Positions 30,667 to 42,804 of a stretch of DNA of 64,000 nt are shown here, in pieces. This DNA comes from Mariniphaga sp. Lineage in GTDB: Bacteria; Bacteroidota; Bacteroidia; Bacteroidales; Prolixibacteraceae. The DNA is taken from contig JAGXGA010000034.1 in NCBI GenBank assembly GCA_024636975.1, forward strand, positions 1-64,000, in the 5' to 3' direction. A program made the translations under genes and the position numbers. The stretch's first letter is position 1; each line of letters starts with the position of its first letter. The notes under the pieces are model-generated. The model was not told the origin of the DNA and did no database searches. It worked only from the letters and a program-made list of their open reading frames with translations.

Positions 30667-31104
30667 TTATACTTTTTCCCGGTAAAATAAACTATCTACC
30701 GAATTTCTGCCCGGGCCGTTTATTAGCAGAAACACCAACAATAAGGTCATGGCGAAATCGGTTCGTGCAGCATGTGCCATAAACCAAAAGCCTTCATCAG
30801 CTATTATGGGAATCTTTGTGGTTATTATGGCTGTGAGCATTATAATAAGCAATGGCACAGCAGCAAGACGGGTTAATACGCCAAAAAGTATAAGTATCCC
30901 GCAAACCACTTCAAAAACGGCCACAAAGTAAGCAAAGAAGGTTGCATAATTGAAGCCTATCATTTCAAATCTGCCAACACCTGTAATTTCAGGATAGAGA
31001 AATTTTTGAACCCCCTCAGAAAAAAAAACCAGACCAACAATCAGCCGTATGAGAATAAATGAACGGGTTTTTCGTGAACGGAAAATTCTTCTTATTGCAA
31101 TCAT
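30667..31104 (-). CDS. DoxX family membrane protein
   Basis: A 145-residue protein with four membrane helices and the DoxX/TQO-small-subunit-like pattern: a first helix LIVGLVFFSEGVQKFLYP with the family Phe/Gly residues, then a helix containing AVFEVVCGILILFGVLTR. Some relatives are thiosulfate:quinone oxidoreductase subunits, but most DoxX proteins have no known reaction. It lies 17 bases from the convergent macro-domain gene. Confidence 0.88.
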   Translation of the reverse strand: MIAIRRIFRSRKTRSFILIRLIVGLVFFSEGVQKFLYPEITGVGRFEMIGFNYATFFAYFVAVFEVVCGILILFGVLTRLAAVPLLIIMLTAIITTKIPIIADEGFWFMAHAARTDFAMTLLLVFLLINGPGRNSVDSLFYREKV

Positions 31105-31229
31105 CTGGTATAAAATTTCACGATTTTATATATATTTTAAACTATATTACCTTTAACCTGCTGGTACTGAAACAACAACAAATCATCGCACATGTTCATA
31201 TCAAATGTCCATTACAGCCTTTGAACGTT

Positions 31230-32006
31230 TTAAATTAATCCCATCCCCAGGGCCAGAGAAATCAGCACCAACATTATCGCCACCATTACCTGGATGAAAT
31301 GCAAGGTTATTTTATGCAAGAGCAGCCTTCCAATTACAGCGCCTGCAATGGCTGCCAGTGTAGCTGAAACAAGCAGCAATATATTCTCCGACAAGCCTGA
31401 AGCAGCAAAACGCGAAGCATAAACCGATAACCTGGTAATATCGACCAGGGAAGCAATTATTACACCGGTTGCAATATATGCTTCTTTCGACAAACCGCTT
31501 TTTATAAGAAATGCACTTCGCAATGCCCCCTGAATTCCTGCCAGCCCTCCAAAAAACCCGCTGAGGGCGCCACCCAGCATCAATTTACTTTTCCCAAACC
31601 GGATGCGCTGAGCTTGAGGCAACACCTCAAACAGTGAAAAAAACAACAGCAACAGCGCTATTATGAGTTTCACAGGGGTAATTTCAAATTCCCTTCCCCA
31701 TATTTCATAGTTGTAAAGAGGTTGCAGATCCGACAATCTAAGCAGTAGCCAGGCTCCGGCGAAGGAAGCCAGTATTGCAGGGATGCCGAACCGGAGAAGA
31801 ACGGATTTATCGGCTTTGCTGCCTACCAGTGCCATCTTAAACAAATTATTTGTAAAATGAACCACCCCGGTAAGAGCAATGGCTATATCAACCGGAAAAA
31901 ACAATGCAAACACAGGCATCAAAATGGTACCCAAACCAAAGCCCGAAAAGAATGTTAGAATAGCTGTTAAAAAAGCAGCCAGGCTAATTACTATAATTTC
32001 AATCAT
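31230..32006 (-). CDS. TauE/SafE (TSUP) family permease
   Basis: A 258-residue protein with about eight membrane helices in two repeats, the second starting at FGKSKLMLGGALSGFFGGLAGIQGALRS, which contains the family signature GGLAGIQG; the first repeat has TFFSGFGLGTILMP. Characterised members export sulfite, sulfoacetate or related anions. A sulfur role would fit the neighbouring ergothioneine and transsulfuration genes, but the orientation and 1.4-kb repeat-filled gap argue against co-transcription. Confidence 0.88.
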   Translation of the reverse strand: MIEIIVISLAAFLTAILTFFSGFGLGTILMPVFALFFPVDIAIALTGVVHFTNNLFKMALVGSKADKSVLLRFGIPAILASFAGAWLLLRLSDLQPLYNYEIWGREFEITPVKLIIALLLLFFSLFEVLPQAQRIRFGKSKLMLGGALSGFFGGLAGIQGALRSAFLIKSGLSKEAYIATGVIIASLVDITRLSVYASRFAASGLSENILLLVSATLAAIAGAVIGRLLLHKITLHFIQVMVAIMLVLISLALGMGLI

Positions 32007-33420: not shown

Positions 33421-34281
33421 TTATTGCGAAATCTTATAATGGTCGGCAATTCTTTGGGCAGCCGAATTGAAAAATAATTTCACCATAGCAAACTGGCTTT
33501 CAGCGCTTTTTTCTTTTATGATTTCCGAAAGCGTTAAAACGGCACCATTTAATTTGGACATCATCCATTTGCCTGCAGCCAGTTCACCGGGTTTTGTATT
33601 TTCATCGACGGGTTCATCTGACTTGACATTCACGTAATAATAGGGTTCATCAACAATATGATCGGGAATGGCCCATCCCATAGCAATTGTTTTGGTTTCC
33701 TTGCCTTCCCTGTTGTGCTCTACGGGAAATGAGAAACCTGAATCGAAGTGGTTGGGCCAGATGTAAACGGGGCATGCACCGGAGAAACCTGCACGTACCT
33801 CATTCAATACAACACTGGCATTGTGCCGGTATCTTATATTTTCCTGCACAGCCTCTTTTGGTCCGGCAGTAAAAAACATTCCTTCTTCGAGCGAATCCAC
33901 AGGCAACTCATAAGGTTGATCAGTTTTTAACTGAGATACATCAGCTCCGGCTTTTTGCAATTTTTTTTTGAATTCTATAAAAGCCTCAGGGAAAGTTTTC
34001 TCTTCGAGTTGAATTTCATGTACAACAGTCATATTCTTATCTCTTATTTGCAATACAAGGCTATTTAACAGCAATCCAACAAGCCAGCCATCGGGGTGTT
34101 GCAGCCCAAGCAGTACTTCCTGATCGGGAATAAACTGCATAGTAATATTACTCTTGTCTTCCTTTTCGGGAATTAAATACCGTCCACTGAGGGCAATAAA
34201 TTGTACAGCGAGATGCTGAATTTGTAACACCCTTTTTATTTCGTTGCTATATCCGAGTGTTAATTGCTTCCAGATTTGCAT
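33421..34281 (-). CDS. DUF5996-like hypothetical protein
   Basis: A 286-residue soluble protein without a signal or membrane helix. It carries an IWPNHFDSGFSFP segment that is typical of DUF5996 and little else I can assign. It is the last of four closely spaced minus-strand genes, 10 bases after the DUF427 gene, behind egtD and the sulfurtransferase. Its position in that run suggests a role linked to ergothioneine or a thiol, but the sequence alone shows none. Confidence 0.72.
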   Translation of the reverse strand: MQIWKQLTLGYSNEIKRVLQIQHLAVQFIALSGRYLIPEKEDKSNITMQFIPDQEVLLGLQHPDGWLVGLLLNSLVLQIRDKNMTVVHEIQLEEKTFPEAFIEFKKKLQKAGADVSQLKTDQPYELPVDSLEEGMFFTAGPKEAVQENIRYRHNASVVLNEVRAGFSGACPVYIWPNHFDSGFSFPVEHNREGKETKTIAMGWAIPDHIVDEPYYYVNVKSDEPVDENTKPGELAAGKWMMSKLNGAVLTLSEIIKEKSAESQFAMVKLFFNSAAQRIADHYKISQ

Positions 34282-34291
34282 TGTTTTACTA

Positions 34292-34576
34292 TTAATCGGT
34301 TTTTACTTCAACACCTTTCCAAAAGGCTATACGGTTTTTTATTTCAGCGGCAGCCTTCGATGGTTCCGGATAATACCATGCGGCATCTTTATTCAACTTC
34401 CCATCCACTTCCAGGTGATAATAGGAAGCTGTTCCTTTCCAGGCACAATTGGTATGTGTTGAGCTCTCTTTCAGGTAATCCCGGTTTACTGATTCGGCCG
34501 GGAAATATTCATTTCCTTCCACCTGCCTGGTTTCATTGCTTTCAGCTATTATTTGTCCGTTCCAGATTGCTTTCAT
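34292..34576 (-). CDS. DUF427 domain protein
   Basis: A 94-residue protein of the DUF427 family, with the compact beta-rich core MKAIWNGQIIAES, YFPAESVNRDYL, CAWKGTASYYHLEVDG and AAWYYPEPS. The family is widespread in bacteria and eukaryotes and has no proven reaction. It sits 34 bases downstream of egtD in the same orientation and 10 bases upstream of the DUF5996-like gene, so it is very likely in the same transcript. Confidence 0.92.
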   Translation of the reverse strand: MKAIWNGQIIAESNETRQVEGNEYFPAESVNRDYLKESSTHTNCAWKGTASYYHLEVDGKLNKDAAWYYPEPSKAAAEIKNRIAFWKGVEVKTD

Positions 34577-34610
34577 AATTTCCTTATTGTTGCTTTATTA
34601 AATGGTTATT

Positions 34611-35573
34611 TCACATTTTTTCCCAGAGTGAATCAACAAAATAGTTGCGGCTGTCGGTAAAATTATATACCACCCGGAAACCATTGTGGCTTGCCAGGTT
34701 ATTGATGGTTTTATAATCATACTTTCGTGAACGTTCCATAAAAACCGGTTCCCATTTTTCAAATTGCCATGTTTGATTTAATGCACCTGCATACACACTT
34801 TGACTGGTTTTCGAAATTAAGAAGCTTTTAACTTCTCCTGTTTCGGGATTGTATTCAGTATACTGATCGAATTGTTCTGTATCGAAATCAGCATCAAGTT
34901 CACGGTTAAGACGAACCAACAGGTTAAGGTTAAACCTGCGGGTATGTCCGTGGGGATCATTGTATGCATCCATAATTACCTTAGGAGATTTTTTGAGATC
35001 GAATCCAATAAGTAATTTGTCACCCGGGCGTGTAAATCCGGCAAGCTGGGTCAGAAAACGATTGGTTTCCTCCTCTGAAAAATTCCCGATGTTTGATCCA
35101 AGGAAAAGAATGATTTTTCGATTTGATGCAAATCCATTCAGTTCCTTTAATTGTTTAAAATAGTCACCTGTCCGCGGGTGTATTTCAATCCCGGGGATTT
35201 CCCTGTTTATGGTTGCCTGCAGATCGTCGTTGGCTTTCTGGCTAATATCGAGCGGAATGTATTGAAACCGGATGTCGAGACCTGCAAGATGATGGAGCAG
35301 TATTTTTGTTTTTTGACCGTCACCCGATCCCAGTTCTACCAGGCTGAATGAATCATCGTCCCCAAAAAATTTCCGGGCTATCAATTCTTTTTGTTGTGTA
35401 AAAATTTCCTCCTCACAATCAGTAAGATAATATTCAGGCATCTTCATTATATCCTGAAAGATGGCACTGCCGGCATCGTCATAAAAGTATCTCGACAACA
35501 GGAATTTCGGTGTTGACGACAAACCTTTTATAGTGTCGGTCGCGAGTGCAGATGTAATTATTTGTTGTTCCAT
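34611..35573 (-). CDS. egtD: L-histidine N-alpha-methyltransferase (EgtD/EanA type)
   Basis: A 320-residue SAM-dependent enzyme that trimethylates histidine to hercynine. The family pattern is complete: YFYDDAGSAIFQDI and MPEYYLTDCEEEIF at the N-terminus, SAM loop VELGSGDGQKT, FLGSNIGNFS, YNDPHGHTRRFNLNLL, and the histidine-binding MERSRKY with Glu280 and Ser282, matching in position the Glu282/Ser284 known from the mycobacterial enzyme. No EgtB-type oxygenase gene is nearby. Instead the gene directly upstream (37-base gap) encodes a rhodanese protein with EanB features. I therefore read it as the EanA partner of an oxygen-independent ergothioneine pathway. Confidence 0.93.
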   Translation of the reverse strand: MEQQIITSALATDTIKGLSSTPKFLLSRYFYDDAGSAIFQDIMKMPEYYLTDCEEEIFTQQKELIARKFFGDDDSFSLVELGSGDGQKTKILLHHLAGLDIRFQYIPLDISQKANDDLQATINREIPGIEIHPRTGDYFKQLKELNGFASNRKIILFLGSNIGNFSEEETNRFLTQLAGFTRPGDKLLIGFDLKKSPKVIMDAYNDPHGHTRRFNLNLLVRLNRELDADFDTEQFDQYTEYNPETGEVKSFLISKTSQSVYAGALNQTWQFEKWEPVFMERSRKYDYKTINNLASHNGFRVVYNFTDSRNYFVDSLWEKM

Positions 35574-35610
35574 ATCGGCTGTTGAAAAGTGTGATTATGC
35601 TTTGAAAAAA

Positions 35611-36912
35611 TTAACGGTTTAAAATTGTTTTTTCTTCGGGCACACCTGTTTCATAAGGATTTTCAGGGTCATTGCTCCACTCGAACCATCCGCCATCATA
35701 TACCGATACACGGGGCCACCCCATAAGCCATGCATTGAACCAGGCTTCGCTGCCCCGCCAGCCGGTACCGCAATAAAATGCAAGATGTTTGTCGGATGTT
35801 ATTCCGTTGCTTTCCCATATTTCGGCAGTTTCATGGTATTCTCGGGTAGTGTGGTCAACGTTCCGGTAATTCTCCATGTGGTAGGCATCGCTGCCGCAGT
35901 CGGCAAATACAGCGCCGGGAATTCGGCCCTTCGCTTCAATGTAATTATACCCGCTTACCTCACCAATGTACTCGGGCCAGCTTCTTACACAAACCAGCTC
36001 ACGATCGTCGGCAAGCAGCATTTCCTTTGCCTCAGGCGTATCTACAGCAAGCTGGGGATTAGCCGGAACCTGAACACCAAAATTTTTTACAGGTATTTTA
36101 GGCACATCCTCTTTTGAAACTTCAAAGCCTCCATCGGTCCACGACTGAAATCCACCGTTCAGGATCCGCACATCCTTTACCCCGGCATACATCATTATAA
36201 ATGCGTTTCGGATAGCTCCAATATCTCCGGCAGCACTGCCTGGAAAGGGATCGTTGTTGTTGGGAAACATGTGCTTCCCATACAATACAACTGTAGTATC
36301 AGCAGTTATTCCATGTGCTTCCAGTGCCTGTTTAATTTCTTCAGGTGAACGTCGGTTCCAGGTTTCGGGAGCTTCAAGAGCCAGTGTATCCATATCGATG
36401 GCCCCCGGTATGTGGCCGCTTAAATACGCATCGCGGTTACGGTAATGGGCATGCACAACTTTAAACCGGTCGTTATCGAAAAGGGGTGGCTTCTCCCCTG
36501 CTATCAGACTATAAACCCAACCAGCCGAAACAAGCTGACTGAACCGTGTAAGTTTTTGCACTGGCAATTCGGGGCTTGCCGCCCACTCATCCACGAAATG
36601 ATTGTAAACATATACCTTATCGTATCCCGATTGCTCAAAACGTTCGGCAGCTGCAGCTGATTCTTCCGGTGCATAGCCATAGACTATAATGTTATCATTG
36701 GGATGAATATCCTTACGTCGCACAATTTCTATCCAGTCGATGTAATTCAGCCATTTTGCCGGAAGGCTCCTGGCTCCCTTAATATGTCCTCCGCGTAATT
36801 CTCCACGCAGTTGCCATCCATTATAAGTATCTGTCGGCCGAACATCAATAATTTTGCAATCGCCATTAGAGATAAGCTCCTGAAGCTCATCAGTACCTAT
36901 TTTCTTAATCAT
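35611..36912 (-). CDS. eanB: Triple-rhodanese sulfurtransferase, EanB-like (ergothioneine synthase)
   Basis: A 433-residue protein with three rhodanese domains: about 5-115, 125-265 and 285-425. Only the third has a catalytic loop with Cys: FYCGTGWRGSE, Cys381. In domain 1 the loop is YGYAPEES and in domain 2 YGKHMFPN, both without Cys, so they are structural. As I recall it, the anaerobic ergothioneine enzyme EanB of Chlorobium limicola uses Cys412 in a CGTGWR loop and Tyr353; here Tyr322 is also exactly 59 residues before the Cys. EanB moves sulfane sulfur onto C2 of the hercynine imidazole. The hercynine-making methyltransferase is the next gene. An ordinary thiosulfate sulfurtransferase is the alternative, but it would normally have two domains. 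Confidence 0.82.
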   Translation of the reverse strand: MIKKIGTDELQELISNGDCKIIDVRPTDTYNGWQLRGELRGGHIKGARSLPAKWLNYIDWIEIVRRKDIHPNDNIIVYGYAPEESAAAAERFEQSGYDKVYVYNHFVDEWAASPELPVQKLTRFSQLVSAGWVYSLIAGEKPPLFDNDRFKVVHAHYRNRDAYLSGHIPGAIDMDTLALEAPETWNRRSPEEIKQALEAHGITADTTVVLYGKHMFPNNNDPFPGSAAGDIGAIRNAFIMMYAGVKDVRILNGGFQSWTDGGFEVSKEDVPKIPVKNFGVQVPANPQLAVDTPEAKEMLLADDRELVCVRSWPEYIGEVSGYNYIEAKGRIPGAVFADCGSDAYHMENYRNVDHTTREYHETAEIWESNGITSDKHLAFYCGTGWRGSEAWFNAWLMGWPRVSVYDGGWFEWSNDPENPYETGVPEEKTILNR

Positions 36913-37130
36913 TACTTTCTGTTATGTAAATTATTTAATTAAATTTCATGTGCAGGTTCTTGTGTTTAAAAGGAAACAATTTTATTGCAACAAAGTTTGT
37001 ATACCACCCGATGGCCATTTATTAAAGGTCATTATCAACTTATTAAACCAATTATCCTTGTTAAAGTTTATGCTCAGGTTTACTGCATTGTTTGTATTTT
37101 AACTGCGAGGGATTATATTTACTGTTACAT

Positions 37131-37790
37131 ATGAATCAAAAGCATAAGCAAATATTCGTGTTTGGCACCAGTTTTCTGGTTGCTGAGGGATTAAGATCAG
37201 TGCTCGGAAAGACAGGCCGGTTTTTGGTTAGCGACCTTGATGGATCTTTGGATCAACTAACTGAAACGGCCGGAAACGGCAAACCTGATGTATTGATTGT
37301 TGATGCTGCTGCCCTTGAATGCGAGTTATTTGATTTCGAAAAATTGAAAAACGTTTCGAATTCTCCTGTCGTCCTGTTGTTACTCGATACCATTACCCGC
37401 AGTGAATTTCAAAAATATTCGGAAGCAGGCATTGAAAACATCTTATTAAAAAATGCCTCCGCTCAGGAAATTTTAAATGCAGCAGAATCAGCAGTAAGCA
37501 GAAGAAAATACTACAGCAGCGAAATTTTGGATATGATCCTGGAATCGATTGAAGCAAAGCAGCCGGTAAAATCAGAAATTAAACTTACCTATTCAGAAAA
37601 GGAAATCGTAAGGCTAATTGCCGGCGGTTTAACCACCAAAGAAATTGCCACCCGCCGCAACATTAGCTTTCATACGGTAAACACCCACCGGAAGAACATC
37701 TTCCGCAAACTGAAGGTCAACAGTGCATCGGAATTGATTATGAAGGCTATTAAAGCGGGATGGATAGATAATATTGAGTATTATATATAA
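37131..37790 (+). CDS. LuxR/NarL-type response regulator
   Basis: A 219-residue regulator; I choose ATG 37131 rather than an upstream alternative because the receiver starts IFVFGTSFLVAEG. The receiver (1-120) keeps the phosphoacceptor-like Asp in LIVDAAALE and the Lys in LLKNAS, but the acidic pair near the N-terminus is absent, so it may not be phosphorylated. The C-terminal HTH is of the NarL type: LTYSEKEIVRLIAGGLTTKEIA and SFHTVNTHRKNIFRKLKV. It is divergent from eanB with about 218 bp between the start codons, which makes it a candidate regulator of that operon. Confidence 0.9.
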   Translation: MNQKHKQIFVFGTSFLVAEGLRSVLGKTGRFLVSDLDGSLDQLTETAGNGKPDVLIVDAAALECELFDFEKLKNVSNSPVVLLLLDTITRSEFQKYSEAGIENILLKNASAQEILNAAESAVSRRKYYSSEILDMILESIEAKQPVKSEIKLTYSEKEIVRLIAGGLTTKEIATRRNISFHTVNTHRKNIFRKLKVNSASELIMKAIKAGWIDNIEYYI

Positions 37791-38490: not shown

Positions 38491-39483
38491 ATGATATACA
38501 ACAACGTACTGGAGCTGATAGGCAATACCCCTATAGTTGAAGTAAAGCGGTTGGAAACCGGTAATTCAAGATTATTTATAAAACTGGAATACCAGAACCC
38601 CGGGGGATCCATCAAGGACCGGATAGGGTTGTCGATGATTGAAGCCGCAGAAAAGAGCGGTAAGATTAAACCGGGCGATACACTGATTGAAGCCACTGCC
38701 GGCAATACAGGTTTAGGCCTGGCACTGGTAGCCGCACAAAAAGGGTATCGGCTAATTCTGGTCATTCCCGATAAGATGAGCCATGAAAAGGTGATGCATC
38801 TGGCGGCAATGGGTGTAGATATCCGGATGACCCGGTCAAATGTGGAAAAAGGCCATCCGGAATACTACCAGGATTATGCCGAACGGCTCGCTAAAAAAAT
38901 TCCCGATTCACATTACATTAACCAGTTTAACAATCAGGCCAACCCGCTGGCACATGAGCTGACCACTGCTCCTGAAATTTGGGAACAGATGGAGCATGAT
39001 GTGGATGCCATTGTAGTGGGTGTGGGTTCAGCCGGAACAATTGGCGGGCTTACCCGTTTCTTTAAAAAGATGGCTAAACAGCCCGATATTGTACTTGCTG
39101 ATCCACAGGGATCAATACTTAAGAATTATATCGAAACAGGACAGACAGGTAAGGCCGGCAGCTGGCTGGTAGAAGGCATTGGCGAAGATTTTGTACCTGA
39201 ACAATGCGACTTCTCACTTGTAAAAAAGGCATATACAGTTACCGATAAGGAGGCATTTTTAGTTGCGCGTGAACTGCTGCTGAAAGAAGGAATCTTTGCA
39301 GGTTCTTCAACCGGCGTGCTGGTGGGTGCAGCCTTAAAATATGCAGCAGAACAGAAGAATCCAAAAAAAATTGTAACTTTTGCCTGCGACACCGGAAACA
39401 AGTACCTGTCGAAGATGTACAGCAACGAATGGATGTCGGAAAACGGATTTATGAACGAACAAAAAGAGCATCACTATTTATGA
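38491..39483 (+). CDS. Cystathionine beta-synthase / cysteine synthase family enzyme
   Basis: A 330-residue PLP enzyme of fold type II. PLP Lys42 sits in NPGGSIKDRIG; the phosphate-binding and substrate loops are EATAGNTGLGLALVA and GVGSAGTIGGLT, and the C-terminal motifs VEGIGEDFVP and ACDTGNKYLSKMY are those of cystathionine beta-synthase-like proteins rather than CysK. There is no CBS regulatory domain pair. It would join homocysteine to serine (or O-acetylserine). Its stop overlaps the start of the gamma-lyase gene by ATGA, so the two are co-translated and form a reverse transsulfuration pair. Both can also make hydrogen sulfide or persulfide, a possible sulfur source for EanB. Confidence 0.88.
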   Translation: MIYNNVLELIGNTPIVEVKRLETGNSRLFIKLEYQNPGGSIKDRIGLSMIEAAEKSGKIKPGDTLIEATAGNTGLGLALVAAQKGYRLILVIPDKMSHEKVMHLAAMGVDIRMTRSNVEKGHPEYYQDYAERLAKKIPDSHYINQFNNQANPLAHELTTAPEIWEQMEHDVDAIVVGVGSAGTIGGLTRFFKKMAKQPDIVLADPQGSILKNYIETGQTGKAGSWLVEGIGEDFVPEQCDFSLVKKAYTVTDKEAFLVARELLLKEGIFAGSSTGVLVGAALKYAAEQKNPKKIVTFACDTGNKYLSKMYSNEWMSENGFMNEQKEHHYL

Positions 39484-40637
39484 AGAAATACAAACTGTCA
39501 ACACGGGCCATCCACGCTGGCCAGGAACCGGATGAAGCCACAGGAGCCATTATGACGCCCATTTATGCATCATCAACCTTTGTACAGCAAAGTCCGGGTG
39601 TACATAAAGGATATGACTACTCACGTAGTGGCAATCCCACACGAACCGCACTTGAAAATTGCATGGCTTCGCTCGAGGACGGGCAATGGGGATTTGCATT
39701 TGCCTCTGGACTGGCTGCTGAGAATGCCGTGCTCGATACTCTGGAAGCCGGTTCGCACATTATTGCAATGGAAGATATGTACGGCGGTACCTTCAGGCTT
39801 TTCGACAAGGTAAAGAAAATCTCTGCCGCTTTAGAAGTGACTTATCTCGATTTAAACAATGAGCAGGAACTTGAAAATTCGATAAAGGGGAACACCCGGC
39901 TCATTTGGGTGGAGACACCTACCAATCCGATGCTTACCATTGTCGACTTGCAAAAAGTGGCAGCCCTTGCAAAAAAACACGGCATCCTTACCGTTTGCGA
40001 TAACACCTTTGCCTCGCCTGTCCTGCAGAAACCCTTTGATTTTGGCATCGATGTGGTAGTACATTCGGCCACCAAATACCTGAACGGCCATTCCGATGTG
40101 ATTGCGGGGATTGTTGTGGTGAAGGACGACCGCGAGTTGGCCGAAAAGATAAAGTTCATTCAAAAAGCCACCGGCGGAATCCTTTCTCCGTTCGATTCAT
40201 TTTTGGTATTGCGGGGGCTGAAAACACTTCCCCTCCGAATGAAAGCGCATTGCTCCAATGCAAAAAAAATTGCTGCTTTCCTTGAGAATCATCCTAAGGT
40301 AGAAAAAGTGATTTATCCCGGTCTGGAATCTTTTCCGCAGCATGAACTGGCAAAAAAACAAATGAAGGACTTTGGCGGCATGATTACCTTTTTGCTCAAG
40401 GGCGGTATCGAGGAATCGCGGCGATTTCTGGAAAAGACCAAGTTGTTTGCCCTGGCCGAAAGCCTGGGCGGTATCGAAAGTCTGATTGAGCATCCGGCCA
40501 TCATGACCCATGCTTCCATTCCAAAGGAGATGAGGGAAAAGCTTGGCGTTGCCGATAACCTGGTGCGGGTATCGGTGGGACTGGAGGATATTGAGGACTT
40601 GCTTGAAGAGTTGGAGGAAGCGCTTAGGGTAGTTTAG
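39480..40637 (+). CDS. Cystathionine gamma-lyase / gamma-synthase family enzyme
   Basis: A 385-residue fold-type I PLP enzyme of the Cys/Met metabolism family. I set the start at 39480, in the ATGA overlap with the previous stop, because the protein then begins with the conserved STRAIHAGQEPDEATGA; a longer open frame upstream has unrelated residues. PLP Lys199 is in VHSATKYLNGHSD; the YDYSRSGNPTR, ASGLAAENAVLDTL and ESLGGIESLIEHPA motifs are complete. With the beta-synthase before it, gamma-lyase is the more likely activity, giving cysteine, ammonia and 2-oxobutyrate; gamma-synthase is the alternative. Confidence 0.92.
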   Translation: MKKYKLSTRAIHAGQEPDEATGAIMTPIYASSTFVQQSPGVHKGYDYSRSGNPTRTALENCMASLEDGQWGFAFASGLAAENAVLDTLEAGSHIIAMEDMYGGTFRLFDKVKKISAALEVTYLDLNNEQELENSIKGNTRLIWVETPTNPMLTIVDLQKVAALAKKHGILTVCDNTFASPVLQKPFDFGIDVVVHSATKYLNGHSDVIAGIVVVKDDRELAEKIKFIQKATGGILSPFDSFLVLRGLKTLPLRMKAHCSNAKKIAAFLENHPKVEKVIYPGLESFPQHELAKKQMKDFGGMITFLLKGGIEESRRFLEKTKLFALAESLGGIESLIEHPAIMTHASIPKEMREKLGVADNLVRVSVGLEDIEDLLEELEEALRVV

Positions 40638-40974: not shown

Positions 40975-42804
40975 TTAGTTCTTCTTTTTATAACACCTCA
41001 CCCACTCAGTTTGAAACTCTACCGGCAGTTTTGATCCTGAGATCTGTTCCAGCACCAGGGTCATCAGATCCATGTGCAATGGGAAGTTTATGCTGTTCTG
41101 TTCCATTTTATGCACTTCTGTATCGTTTATCTTCCAGGTAAAGCTTCCGTTTGCCTTTTCAAGAGTAAAAATGTACCATTTGTTTTTATTCAGATTTGAA
41201 ATGTCGAGGCCTTCCAGATCCTGCTTACCGTCATTGCCTGTGCGGGCTACACCCAGCCTGTTTTTGGCTCCCATTTCAAGAAGATATACCCGTTCGGAAT
41301 TGTTCTCCCCCTGAAGTACACAACTGCTCACCACTTCATTGACCGGGTTGAACTTCATTTTGGCTTCATATATTCCGTCGTTCTGGCTGAACGATTTAGC
41401 CGAGGAAACCAGACCGGAAGTATATTCAAATTCCTGTGGCACGAATCCGGCAGGCATTTTCCATACAAGGCTTTCGGCTTTCTCCTTTCGGGTTTCAATG
41501 ATAAGCTTTCCCCCTGTTCTGACATTCTTCCCCTGTGTAAATACATGAATATCGCCCGGCAATGCGTAATTCTTTCCCAGCAGCTTATCAGTCCATAGTG
41601 GCATTACCGACCACTTTTCAGTATCGAGTTTTGAGGATGCGAAATCCTCATTGAAGGTAACCTCCCATTCATTAAAGAATGCAAACGCATTGCTTCCTTT
41701 ATACCTGAAATATTTTGTCAGGTGTGGCTTATTCTTAAGCTCCAGGTATTCCTTTTCACTGGCGTAATCATCTGTTTTCTCCCACTTGTTTTTGTCTTCC
41801 AGGTAAGCTTTTCGTTCCTTAAATTCTTTCGACGAAATGATTTCTTCCAGTTCGCGGTAACGTTTTAAATCGAACGAATCCTTAACATCGAGGTAGTTCT
41901 TATGAATTGCCGATTTTTCATATTTCAGGAAAAATTTAATGTCGGAATCGTTGTTGAACTCCTTATAACGGCGCCACTTTTTATGGGCTTCCGATTTTTC
42001 AAACTTCTTCTTATCCTTCAGGTACTCTACCTTTTTTTTGAACTCAGCATCACTGACATATAACTTCAATTCTTCATACTTTTTCAGGTCGTGGCTATCC
42101 GCCGTTTCACGATAAAGTTTCAACTCCTTTGAATGTTCAAATTTGAAGTAATTCTTTATTTCAGGTTCTTTAGTAAATGATTCAAACTCTTTTTGCTGTT
42201 GCTTGTCTTTGGAAGGGATATTTTTTAGATCCAGGTACTTTTTTATTTTATCTGAGCGACCAGCCTTTTCATGGCGTTCAACCTGCTGCAAATTTTTAAG
42301 TTTAAAATAAGTCTTTATACCCGGTGATTTTTCCAGCCTTTGCAGTTCGGTTAAATGTTGTTCCTCAACTGAGCCTTTGTATTTTTGATTTTCAATGTCT
42401 TTTTTTTGTTTGTGGAATTCTCCTTCCTTAACATATTCCGAAAGAACTTCATATTCATTTAATTTTTCAGATTTCCTGATTGTTTCAAAGCGTTTCAGTT
42501 CACTTGAATTTGCAGCATCAAAGTACTTCTTTATGCTTTTCTTTTTCTTCAGTGCATTATACTCCTGCAGCAAATTGAATTCTTTGCTGTTTTTAAACTG
42601 CTTCGATTGAATTTCTGCCTTTCGCTTCCTGAAATCTTCTGAATTCACCAGCTTTTCCAAATCGATAAAATGTTTTAACTCTTCTGAATTTTCAACATGC
42701 AAAAACTCATTATAATCATCCAATAAGGCTTTCCGTTCCGATTCAATTTTCTCTACAGGTTTTATTTTCCCCAATAGCTGAAGGGTGAATATTTTAAAAG
42801 ACAT
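40975..42804 (-). CDS. Charged helical-repeat protein with a lectin/GH16-like tail
   Basis: A 609-residue protein with no signal peptide. Residues about 15-360 are Lys/Glu-rich helices in at least four degenerate repeats of 60-75 residues. Each has the scheme S-x-(E/D)-L-K-(R/H/K)-(Y/F)-x-x-L-E, then S-x-E-F-x-x-(R/K)-K, then Y-x-x-L-K, and ends with I-K-x-Y-F; see ELKRFETIRKSEKL, DLKKYEELKLYVSDAEFKKK and DLKRYRELEEIISSKEFKER. Residues about 370-609 form a concanavalin-like domain (VTFNEDFASSKLDTEKW, WKINDTEVHKME) related to GH16/LamG; I see no clear ExDxxE catalytic motif, so it may only bind sugar. A TATTTTTG box on the minus strand (42837-42830) precedes the ATG. Function unknown. Confidence 0.75.
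   Translation of the reverse strand: MSFKIFTLQLLGKIKPVEKIESERKALLDDYNEFLHVENSEELKHFIDLEKLVNSEDFRKRKAEIQSKQFKNSKEFNLLQEYNALKKKKSIKKYFDAANSSELKRFETIRKSEKLNEYEVLSEYVKEGEFHKQKKDIENQKYKGSVEEQHLTELQRLEKSPGIKTYFKLKNLQQVERHEKAGRSDKIKKYLDLKNIPSKDKQQQKEFESFTKEPEIKNYFKFEHSKELKLYRETADSHDLKKYEELKLYVSDAEFKKKVEYLKDKKKFEKSEAHKKWRRYKEFNNDSDIKFFLKYEKSAIHKNYLDVKDSFDLKRYRELEEIISSKEFKERKAYLEDKNKWEKTDDYASEKEYLELKNKPHLTKYFRYKGSNAFAFFNEWEVTFNEDFASSKLDTEKWSVMPLWTDKLLGKNYALPGDIHVFTQGKNVRTGGKLIIETRKEKAESLVWKMPAGFVPQEFEYTSGLVSSAKSFSQNDGIYEAKMKFNPVNEVVSSCVLQGENNSERVYLLEMGAKNRLGVARTGNDGKQDLEGLDISNLNKNKWYIFTLEKANGSFTWKINDTEVHKMEQNSINFPLHMDLMTLVLEQISGSKLPVEFQTEWVRCYKKKN

Follow-up and report, generated by a model that had tools for sequence, protein, structure and literature searches.

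A compact EanB-type ergothioneine operon predicted in a Bacteroidota genome, and the association of DUF427 with EgtD

A 64,000-nucleotide stretch of a Mariniphaga sp. genome (henceforth the window), corresponding to the first 64 kb of the contig that we label C55, very probably carries a compact operon for ergothioneine synthesis of the EanB type, as judged from homology, catalytic residues, gene layout and co-occurrence across genomes. Four closely packed genes lie on the minus strand between positions 33421 and 36912: eanB (35611..36912), encoding a predicted triple-rhodanese ergothioneine synthase of 433 residues; egtD (eanA; 34611..35573), encoding a predicted S-adenosylmethionine-dependent histidine N-alpha-methyltransferase of 320 residues; a DUF427 gene (34292..34576) for a protein of 94 residues; and a DUF5996-like gene (33421..34281) for a protein of 286 residues. 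The gaps between them measure 37, 34 and 10 bases, in this order. An original prediction, made from the DNA letters alone, had described this four-gene run and read its first two genes as an eanB-egtD ergothioneine operon, and both points are borne out by our analysis. The core of the operon is of the known EanA/EanB kind, and the new part is the association of DUF427 with it. In this operon, EgtD would transfer three methyl groups from S-adenosylmethionine to histidine to give hercynine. EanB would then take up the sulfane sulfur of polysulfide, hold it on Cys381 as a persulfide and transfer it to C2 of the imidazole ring of hercynine, forming ergothioneine in one step without O2, with Tyr322 as the putative acid/base and Arg386 in an assisting role. 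DUF427 would be a pathway accessory involved in the binding, protection or recycling of hercynine or ergothioneine. We infer these reactions in this organism, as well as the role of DUF427, from the comparisons that follow.

A search with the 433-residue protein against all PDB sequences placed eight distinct sequences at the top (6ktv, 6h98 and others, 692-701 bits), entered simply as 'Sulfurtransferase', which we take to be Chlorobium limicola EanB and its mutants. The best match, 6ktv (E-value 5e-210, 701 bits), covers residues 4-426, that is 423 residues without a gap, and is followed at a distance by YnjE (298 bits) and by other rhodaneses at 86 bits or less. Pfam recognizes three Rhodanese stretches, and Cys381 is located in the CGTGWRG loop of the third, confirming the triple rhodanese with a cysteine in a CGTGWR loop that had been claimed from the sequence. 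Tyr322 precedes this cysteine by 59 residues, and both residues fall into columns of the solved EanB chains, where the Tyr322 column is occupied by Phe in chain 6kw0. For C. limicola EanB, a review (PMC10903977) describes Tyr353 as acid/base, Cys412 as persulfide carrier and Arg417 as stabilizing the intermediate. An offset of 31 residues maps these three positions onto Tyr322, Cys381 and Arg386 of the window protein, and all three residues are kept in 107/107 rows of an alignment of EanB-like sequences, from which the redundant row L026 was left out. The alignment with EanB that the original prediction had proposed as a check thus places Tyr322 and Cys381 on Tyr353 and Cys412, with EanB rather than other rhodaneses as the best match. 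The window encodes counterparts of the same two enzymes as C. limicola (EanA/EanB, Clim_1148/Clim_1149), with the same catalytic Tyr, Cys and Arg. It differs from C. limicola in that the pair is followed by the DUF427 and DUF5996-like genes, and in that another eanB-egtD pair, accompanied by an importer, exists elsewhere in the assembly (see below).

Several observations weigh against this identification or limit what it means, and the first concerns the active site itself. E. coli YnjE, annotated as molybdopterin synthase sulfurtransferase, shares the Tyr, Cys and Arg of the EanB columns as well as the whole CGTGWR loop, and is 39% identical to the window EanB over 406 aligned positions (we used E. 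coli K-12 ynjE, L129 5468-6775, as yardstick). Since YnjE also has the same 59-residue distance between Tyr and Cys, the spacing does not tell EanB from YnjE, and we rejected it as an EanB diagnostic: the spacing highlighted in the original prediction is real and lies in EanB columns, but it is not diagnostic, and the Tyr/Cys pair alone is an unsafe basis for annotating EanB. The shared residues would fit a YnjE-like sulfurtransferase that serves molybdopterin or another sulfur carrier and happens to lie beside egtD by chance. We regard this explanation as highly improbable. The bit score to EanB is more than double that to YnjE (701 versus 298). The window protein also has His156, Arg187, Tyr344, Asn348 and Arg350, five residues shared by solved EanB and every one of the 107 rows but not by YnjE. 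Gene context points the same way. Among eanB loci (the best 80 of 560 relatives), 52/80 have egtD on the same strand no more than 1.5 kb downstream. The E. coli ynjE region has no egtD among its 14 annotated features. Genomes with eanB almost always encode a strong EgtD as well: 24/25 in an order sample of 198 genomes that includes the window's own (strong EgtD set at 200 bits or more), and 18/18 in a phylum sample of 395 genomes (150 bits or more). The single exception in the order sample, G426, has its eanB cut by a contig end. The assignment of the window protein as a predicted EanB thus rests on the whole-length score, the EanB-specific conserved residues and the adjoining egtD.

The second point concerns EgtD, which scores 281 bits, some 10 bits below the NCBI equivalog cut-off for TIGR03438 (290.9), so that its assignment relies on the Pfam family, the conserved residues and the neighbouring gene rather than on this equivalog. 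It matches PF10017 (Methyltransf_33) over the whole protein at 320.6 bits, against a cut-off of 23, as well as the solved structures 7scf (E-value 3e-52) and 4uy6 (E-value 3e-49), the latter presumably EgtD of M. smegmatis. Glu280 and Ser282 of the histidine site fall into the columns of the E-x-S motif of 4uy6, in agreement with the adjoining histidine methyltransferase with a Glu/Ser pair that had been called from the sequence. A comparable pair has been used in a heterologous host: as reported in one paper, a Bacteroidales EanA (49% 'homology' to its C. limicola counterpart) and an Anaerobacillus EanB-like protein (38% 'homology' to EanB) led to the production of ergothioneine in B. licheniformis (PMC11767532). 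By analogy with such a pair, the eanB and egtD of the window are likely functional.

The third point is the relation of the pathway to oxygen. The assembly (5.76 Mb in 67 contigs, 95% complete) has no EgtB match over the cut-off, with 11 partial matches of which the best reaches 69.9 bits against 360; the aerobic EgtB/EgtD pathway would thus have only the EgtD step in common with this genome. The same genome encodes COX1-type oxidases (492.7 and 203.8 bits). Hence a strictly anaerobic lifestyle is not obvious, and oxygen independence need not explain the presence of the pathway. The term 'oxygen-independent' describes a property of the enzyme, not of the lifestyle. With eanB in 25/198 genomes of the order sample, the oxygen-independent route is spread in Bacteroidota beyond the green sulfur bacteria.

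A second eanB-egtD pair is present in the same assembly on contig C28 (9.5 kb), and the two EanB copies are 76% identical. It belongs to a larger operon (L111, 481-9043, all genes on one strand) whose genes, named by family similarity, are in order a LysE-type exporter, DUF427, eanB, egtD, an OpuAC/permease fusion, an ATP-binding cassette (ABC) ATPase, an NAD-binding/NmrA-like protein, a DUF5996-like protein, a Rieske protein and an AhpC/TSA protein. The best PDB match of the fusion is 8dp6/8dp7 (8dp6 at 296 bits), labelled only 'Osmoprotection protein' and, we assume, H. pylori EgtU. The fusion also matches chains named 'Ergothioneine transporter EgtUC' at 160-170 bits, which points to ergothioneine itself as the compound being handled. 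In this it resembles the EgtU importer (PMC9732360; PDB 7txk, 8dp6), with the difference that it lies beside biosynthesis genes here; that paper describes SpEgtU homologues as nearly exclusive to Firmicutes. The composition of C28 (guanine-cytosine content 0.408 versus 0.400, tetranucleotide correlation 0.956) is compatible with the same genome; a locus from another organism (L032) scored 0.964, and C28 may be misbinned. Two eanB copies also occur in two named assemblies, WOYV01 (L031/L036) and JAHYJP01 (L091/L110). A recent tandem duplication is not supported as the source of the two copies studied here, as they sit apart on the EanB tree, which was built by a quick method and has weak deep support. 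The nearest named EanB relatives of both copies come from Prolixibacteraceae, Lentimicrobiaceae, Dysgonomonadaceae and unclassified Bacteroidales, which places the organism in the Bacteroidota and probably in the Bacteroidales/Marinilabiliales group.

We then consider the third gene of the operon, whose product matches DUF427 (PF04248) at 111 bits against a cut-off of 22.1. A DUF427 gene occurs in 32/80 eanB loci, with 31 copies no more than 4 kb from eanB and a single copy farther away, even though the near and far flanks are almost equal in size (526 kb and 518 kb, respectively). On the same strand and within 4 kb it is found in 29/80 loci, and its position shifts: 12 copies are upstream of eanB, seven between eanB and egtD, nine after egtD and one downstream of eanB in a locus where no egtD was found. 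When only the 41 loci with 4 kb on both sides are considered, 17 have DUF427 within this distance. One cultured relative that has the gene is Thermophagus xiamenensis (L038). Some of these loci come from one assembly and many contigs are short, and with the best 80 of 560 relatives the counts lean to close relatives. On the EanB tree, the presence of DUF427 requires at least 15 state changes (57 rows, contig-cut loci left out), or 21 if the cut loci are counted as lacking it. The shifting position together with these state changes argues for a repeated association. DUF427 is absent within 6.5 kb of eanB in 49/82 neighbourhoods (the 80 named loci and the two of the window's own genome), so the core reaction does not depend on it.

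Across genomes, DUF427 follows EgtD. In the order sample eanB is present in 25/198 genomes, EgtD in 32/198 and PF04248 in 15/198, of which 12 hold an intact gene. Every genome with an intact DUF427 has EgtD (12/12) and 11/12 have eanB; in the remaining one, G575, pieces of egtD lie at the ends of contigs. The other three genomes have DUF427 fragments, and one of them (G509) is an eanB genome. In the phylum sample, 83 genomes have DUF427, 128 have a strong EgtD and 81 have both (Fisher p 1e-47, shared ancestry ignored), and at the genus level all 46 DUF427 genera (46/46) are among the EgtD genera, which number 68/171. A domain of unknown function thereby gains an almost exclusive partner in EgtD (81/83 among 395 genomes of the phylum). 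By contrast, eanB occurs in only 10/83 DUF427 genomes of this sample, and we therefore rejected DUF427 as an EanB-specific partner. The co-occurrence with eanB, which the original prediction had proposed as a check, thus holds as clustering near eanB (31/32 copies within 4 kb), while across genomes DUF427 tracks EgtD more than EanB. For this reason, the role of DUF427 probably concerns hercynine or ergothioneine and not sulfur transfer, irrespective of which enzyme inserts the sulfur. Taken together, we consider it likely that DUF427 is functionally tied to the ergothioneine pathway. In a library of open-access papers, we found none dealing with DUF427 and ergothioneine together, nor, among the matches listed, one dealing with DUF427 and EgtD.

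This tie has to be set against a number of discordant genomes. DUF427 is missing from 13/25 eanB genomes of the order sample, including G567 from the same family, and from 47/128 EgtD genomes of the phylum sample, while two of the 83 DUF427 genomes in the latter (G061 and G159) have no matching EgtD. Moreover, only 19/111 DUF427 copies of the phylum sample lie within 7 kb of egtD. Among 14 control genomes, DUF427 was found only in Deinobacterium chartae, which has no EgtD match, and PF10017 matches were confined to E. coli and Methanosarcina acetivorans, both without DUF427. In a second phylum (that of L080, labelled Myxococcota, 103 genomes), a strong EgtD is present in 2/3 DUF427 genomes, versus 6/100 of the others (Fisher p 0.015, again ignoring ancestry). 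The link between DUF427 and EgtD is thus weaker outside the phylum. The co-occurrence might be produced by a small independent domain if this domain and EgtD are merely frequent in the same lineages or lifestyles of Bacteroidota, and the many copies away from egtD, the EgtD genomes lacking DUF427, the case of D. chartae and statistics that ignore ancestry all fit this explanation. We nevertheless find it rather unlikely, considering the near-complete one-way dependence of DUF427 on EgtD (81/83 genomes, 12/12 intact copies in the order and 46/46 genera), its clustering with eanB and egtD in several arrangements, and the number of changes on the EanB tree.

How might DUF427 act in the ergothioneine pathway? 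The AlphaFold model of the protein (predicted local distance difference test score, pLDDT, 97) matches 3djm with a template modelling (TM) score of 0.79-0.83, in line with a sequence match at an E-value of 4e-6, but 3djm is itself a DUF427 protein of unknown function. One study groups the DUF427 fold, which lacks a zinc site, with the beta-tent folds of MsrB and of the ligand-binding domain of cereblon, and places the family mainly in bacteria and fungi (PMC4287342). The window protein, predicted to adopt this fold, matches 3djm in its model; compared with 3djm and the beta-tent relatives (CULT, MsrB and yippee; PMC4287342), it stands out by its tie to ergothioneine genes. Ten residues are invariant among 25 aligned DUF427 proteins from such operons: W5, Y24, F25, C44, W46, Y52, W67, Y69, F85 and W86. 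Ergothioneine, too, is made chiefly by bacteria and fungi. In EgtU, aromatic residues hold the betaine group (PMC9732360). It is conceivable that W5, W46, W67, W86, Y24, F25, Y52 and Y69 likewise bind hercynine or ergothioneine by its trimethylammonium group, while Cys44 handles the thione or oxidized forms, for example by reducing ergothioneine disulfide or sulfenate or by protecting ergothioneine, in bacteria with EanB and in other EgtD bacteria alike. Two findings call for caution about the ligand proposal: the position of Trp46 is a Leu in 3djm, and the fold study did not see binding of choline, carnitine or betaine by the cereblon-type domain (PMC4287342).

Redox and other genes recur around eanB in addition to DUF427. 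The 82 neighbourhoods include genes of the Rieske/glutamate-synthase-like (14), AhpC/TSA (12), LysE (8), DoxX (8), NDH2-like (7), EgtU-like (7) with ATPase (6) and Rieske/thiamine pyrophosphate (TPP) enzyme (7) types. The Rieske domain is fused to a glutamate-synthase-like domain or a TPP enzyme beside eanB in, for example, L078 (6153-7760) and L075 (13442-15388). A pyridine-nucleotide disulfide oxidoreductase gene is found in 6/82 neighbourhoods, in four of them between eanB and egtD; it lies directly downstream of eanB in L033, L036, L076 and L086 (before egtD) and in L023. Its product is a candidate for persulfide supply or for reducing oxidized ergothioneine. For the fate of ergothioneine after its synthesis and the recycling of its oxidized forms, DUF427, EgtU and the redox genes recurring around eanB provide a short list of testable candidates.

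The redox genes, the two extra genes that follow egtD at gaps of 34 and 10 bases, and, in DUF427, Cys44 and many aromatic residues that do not vary would also suit an operon with genuine EgtD and EanB whose product is a related compound (hercynine alone, selenoneine or a thiolated analogue, for example), the DUF427 and DUF5996-like proteins acting as tailoring enzymes. We judge this very unlikely, given that a homologous pair makes ergothioneine in vivo (PMC11767532), that the importer encoded on C28 matches EgtUC chains, and that most eanB neighbourhoods do without a nearby DUF427.

The fourth gene has a looser connection with the pathway. Its product resembles DUF5996 (PF19459) at 20 bits, below the Pfam cut-off of 25, so that the resemblance behind the label given in the original prediction holds but the family assignment does not reach threshold; for a relative from L034, Pfam gave no match at an E-value of 0.001. 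The structure model is good (pLDDT 90), but a function could not be derived from it, as no PDB fold matched at an E-value of 0.001 or better and no viral model matched. DUF5996-like genes occur in 14/80 eanB loci, always downstream and on the same strand, which supports an occasional, optional operon partner only. The suggestion that both small genes are accessory parts is therefore strongly supported for DUF427, by gene order and phylogenetic profile, while the DUF5996-like gene is an occasional partner.

Individual eanB loci depart from the common layout. In Salinimicrobium (L040, L041, L044 and L048-L051), the examined flanks revealed no egtD, and a conserved 139-residue protein without a Pfam match is encoded directly upstream of eanB. 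L035 (binned as Patescibacteria) and L080 (Deltaproteobacteria/Myxococcota) encode a Bacteroidota-like EanB, reflecting either misbinning or transfer.

Upstream of the window operon, the presumed promoter region (36913..37127) is common to the operon and a divergent LuxR-type gene (37128-37790). This stretch has no match to a Bacteroidetes-type promoter pattern, and promoter-like and terminator signals around the operon are not above those of shuffled sequence. The LuxR-type gene was dismissed as a conserved regulator, as it is present at just 1/80 named eanB loci. Farther along, cystathionine beta-synthase-like and cystathionine gamma-synthase/lyase-like genes (38491-40637) are a possible persulfide source near the operon; as a conserved sulfur supplier this pair was rejected, with no match by phmmer in the 80 named loci (flanks up to 10 kb). 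They are followed by a 609-residue open reading frame on the minus strand (40975-42804) without a Pfam match at an E-value of 0.001. Downstream of the operon and on its strand are DoxX-type and TauE/SafE-type genes (30667-32006), and a DoxX relative lies near eanB in 8/80 named loci.

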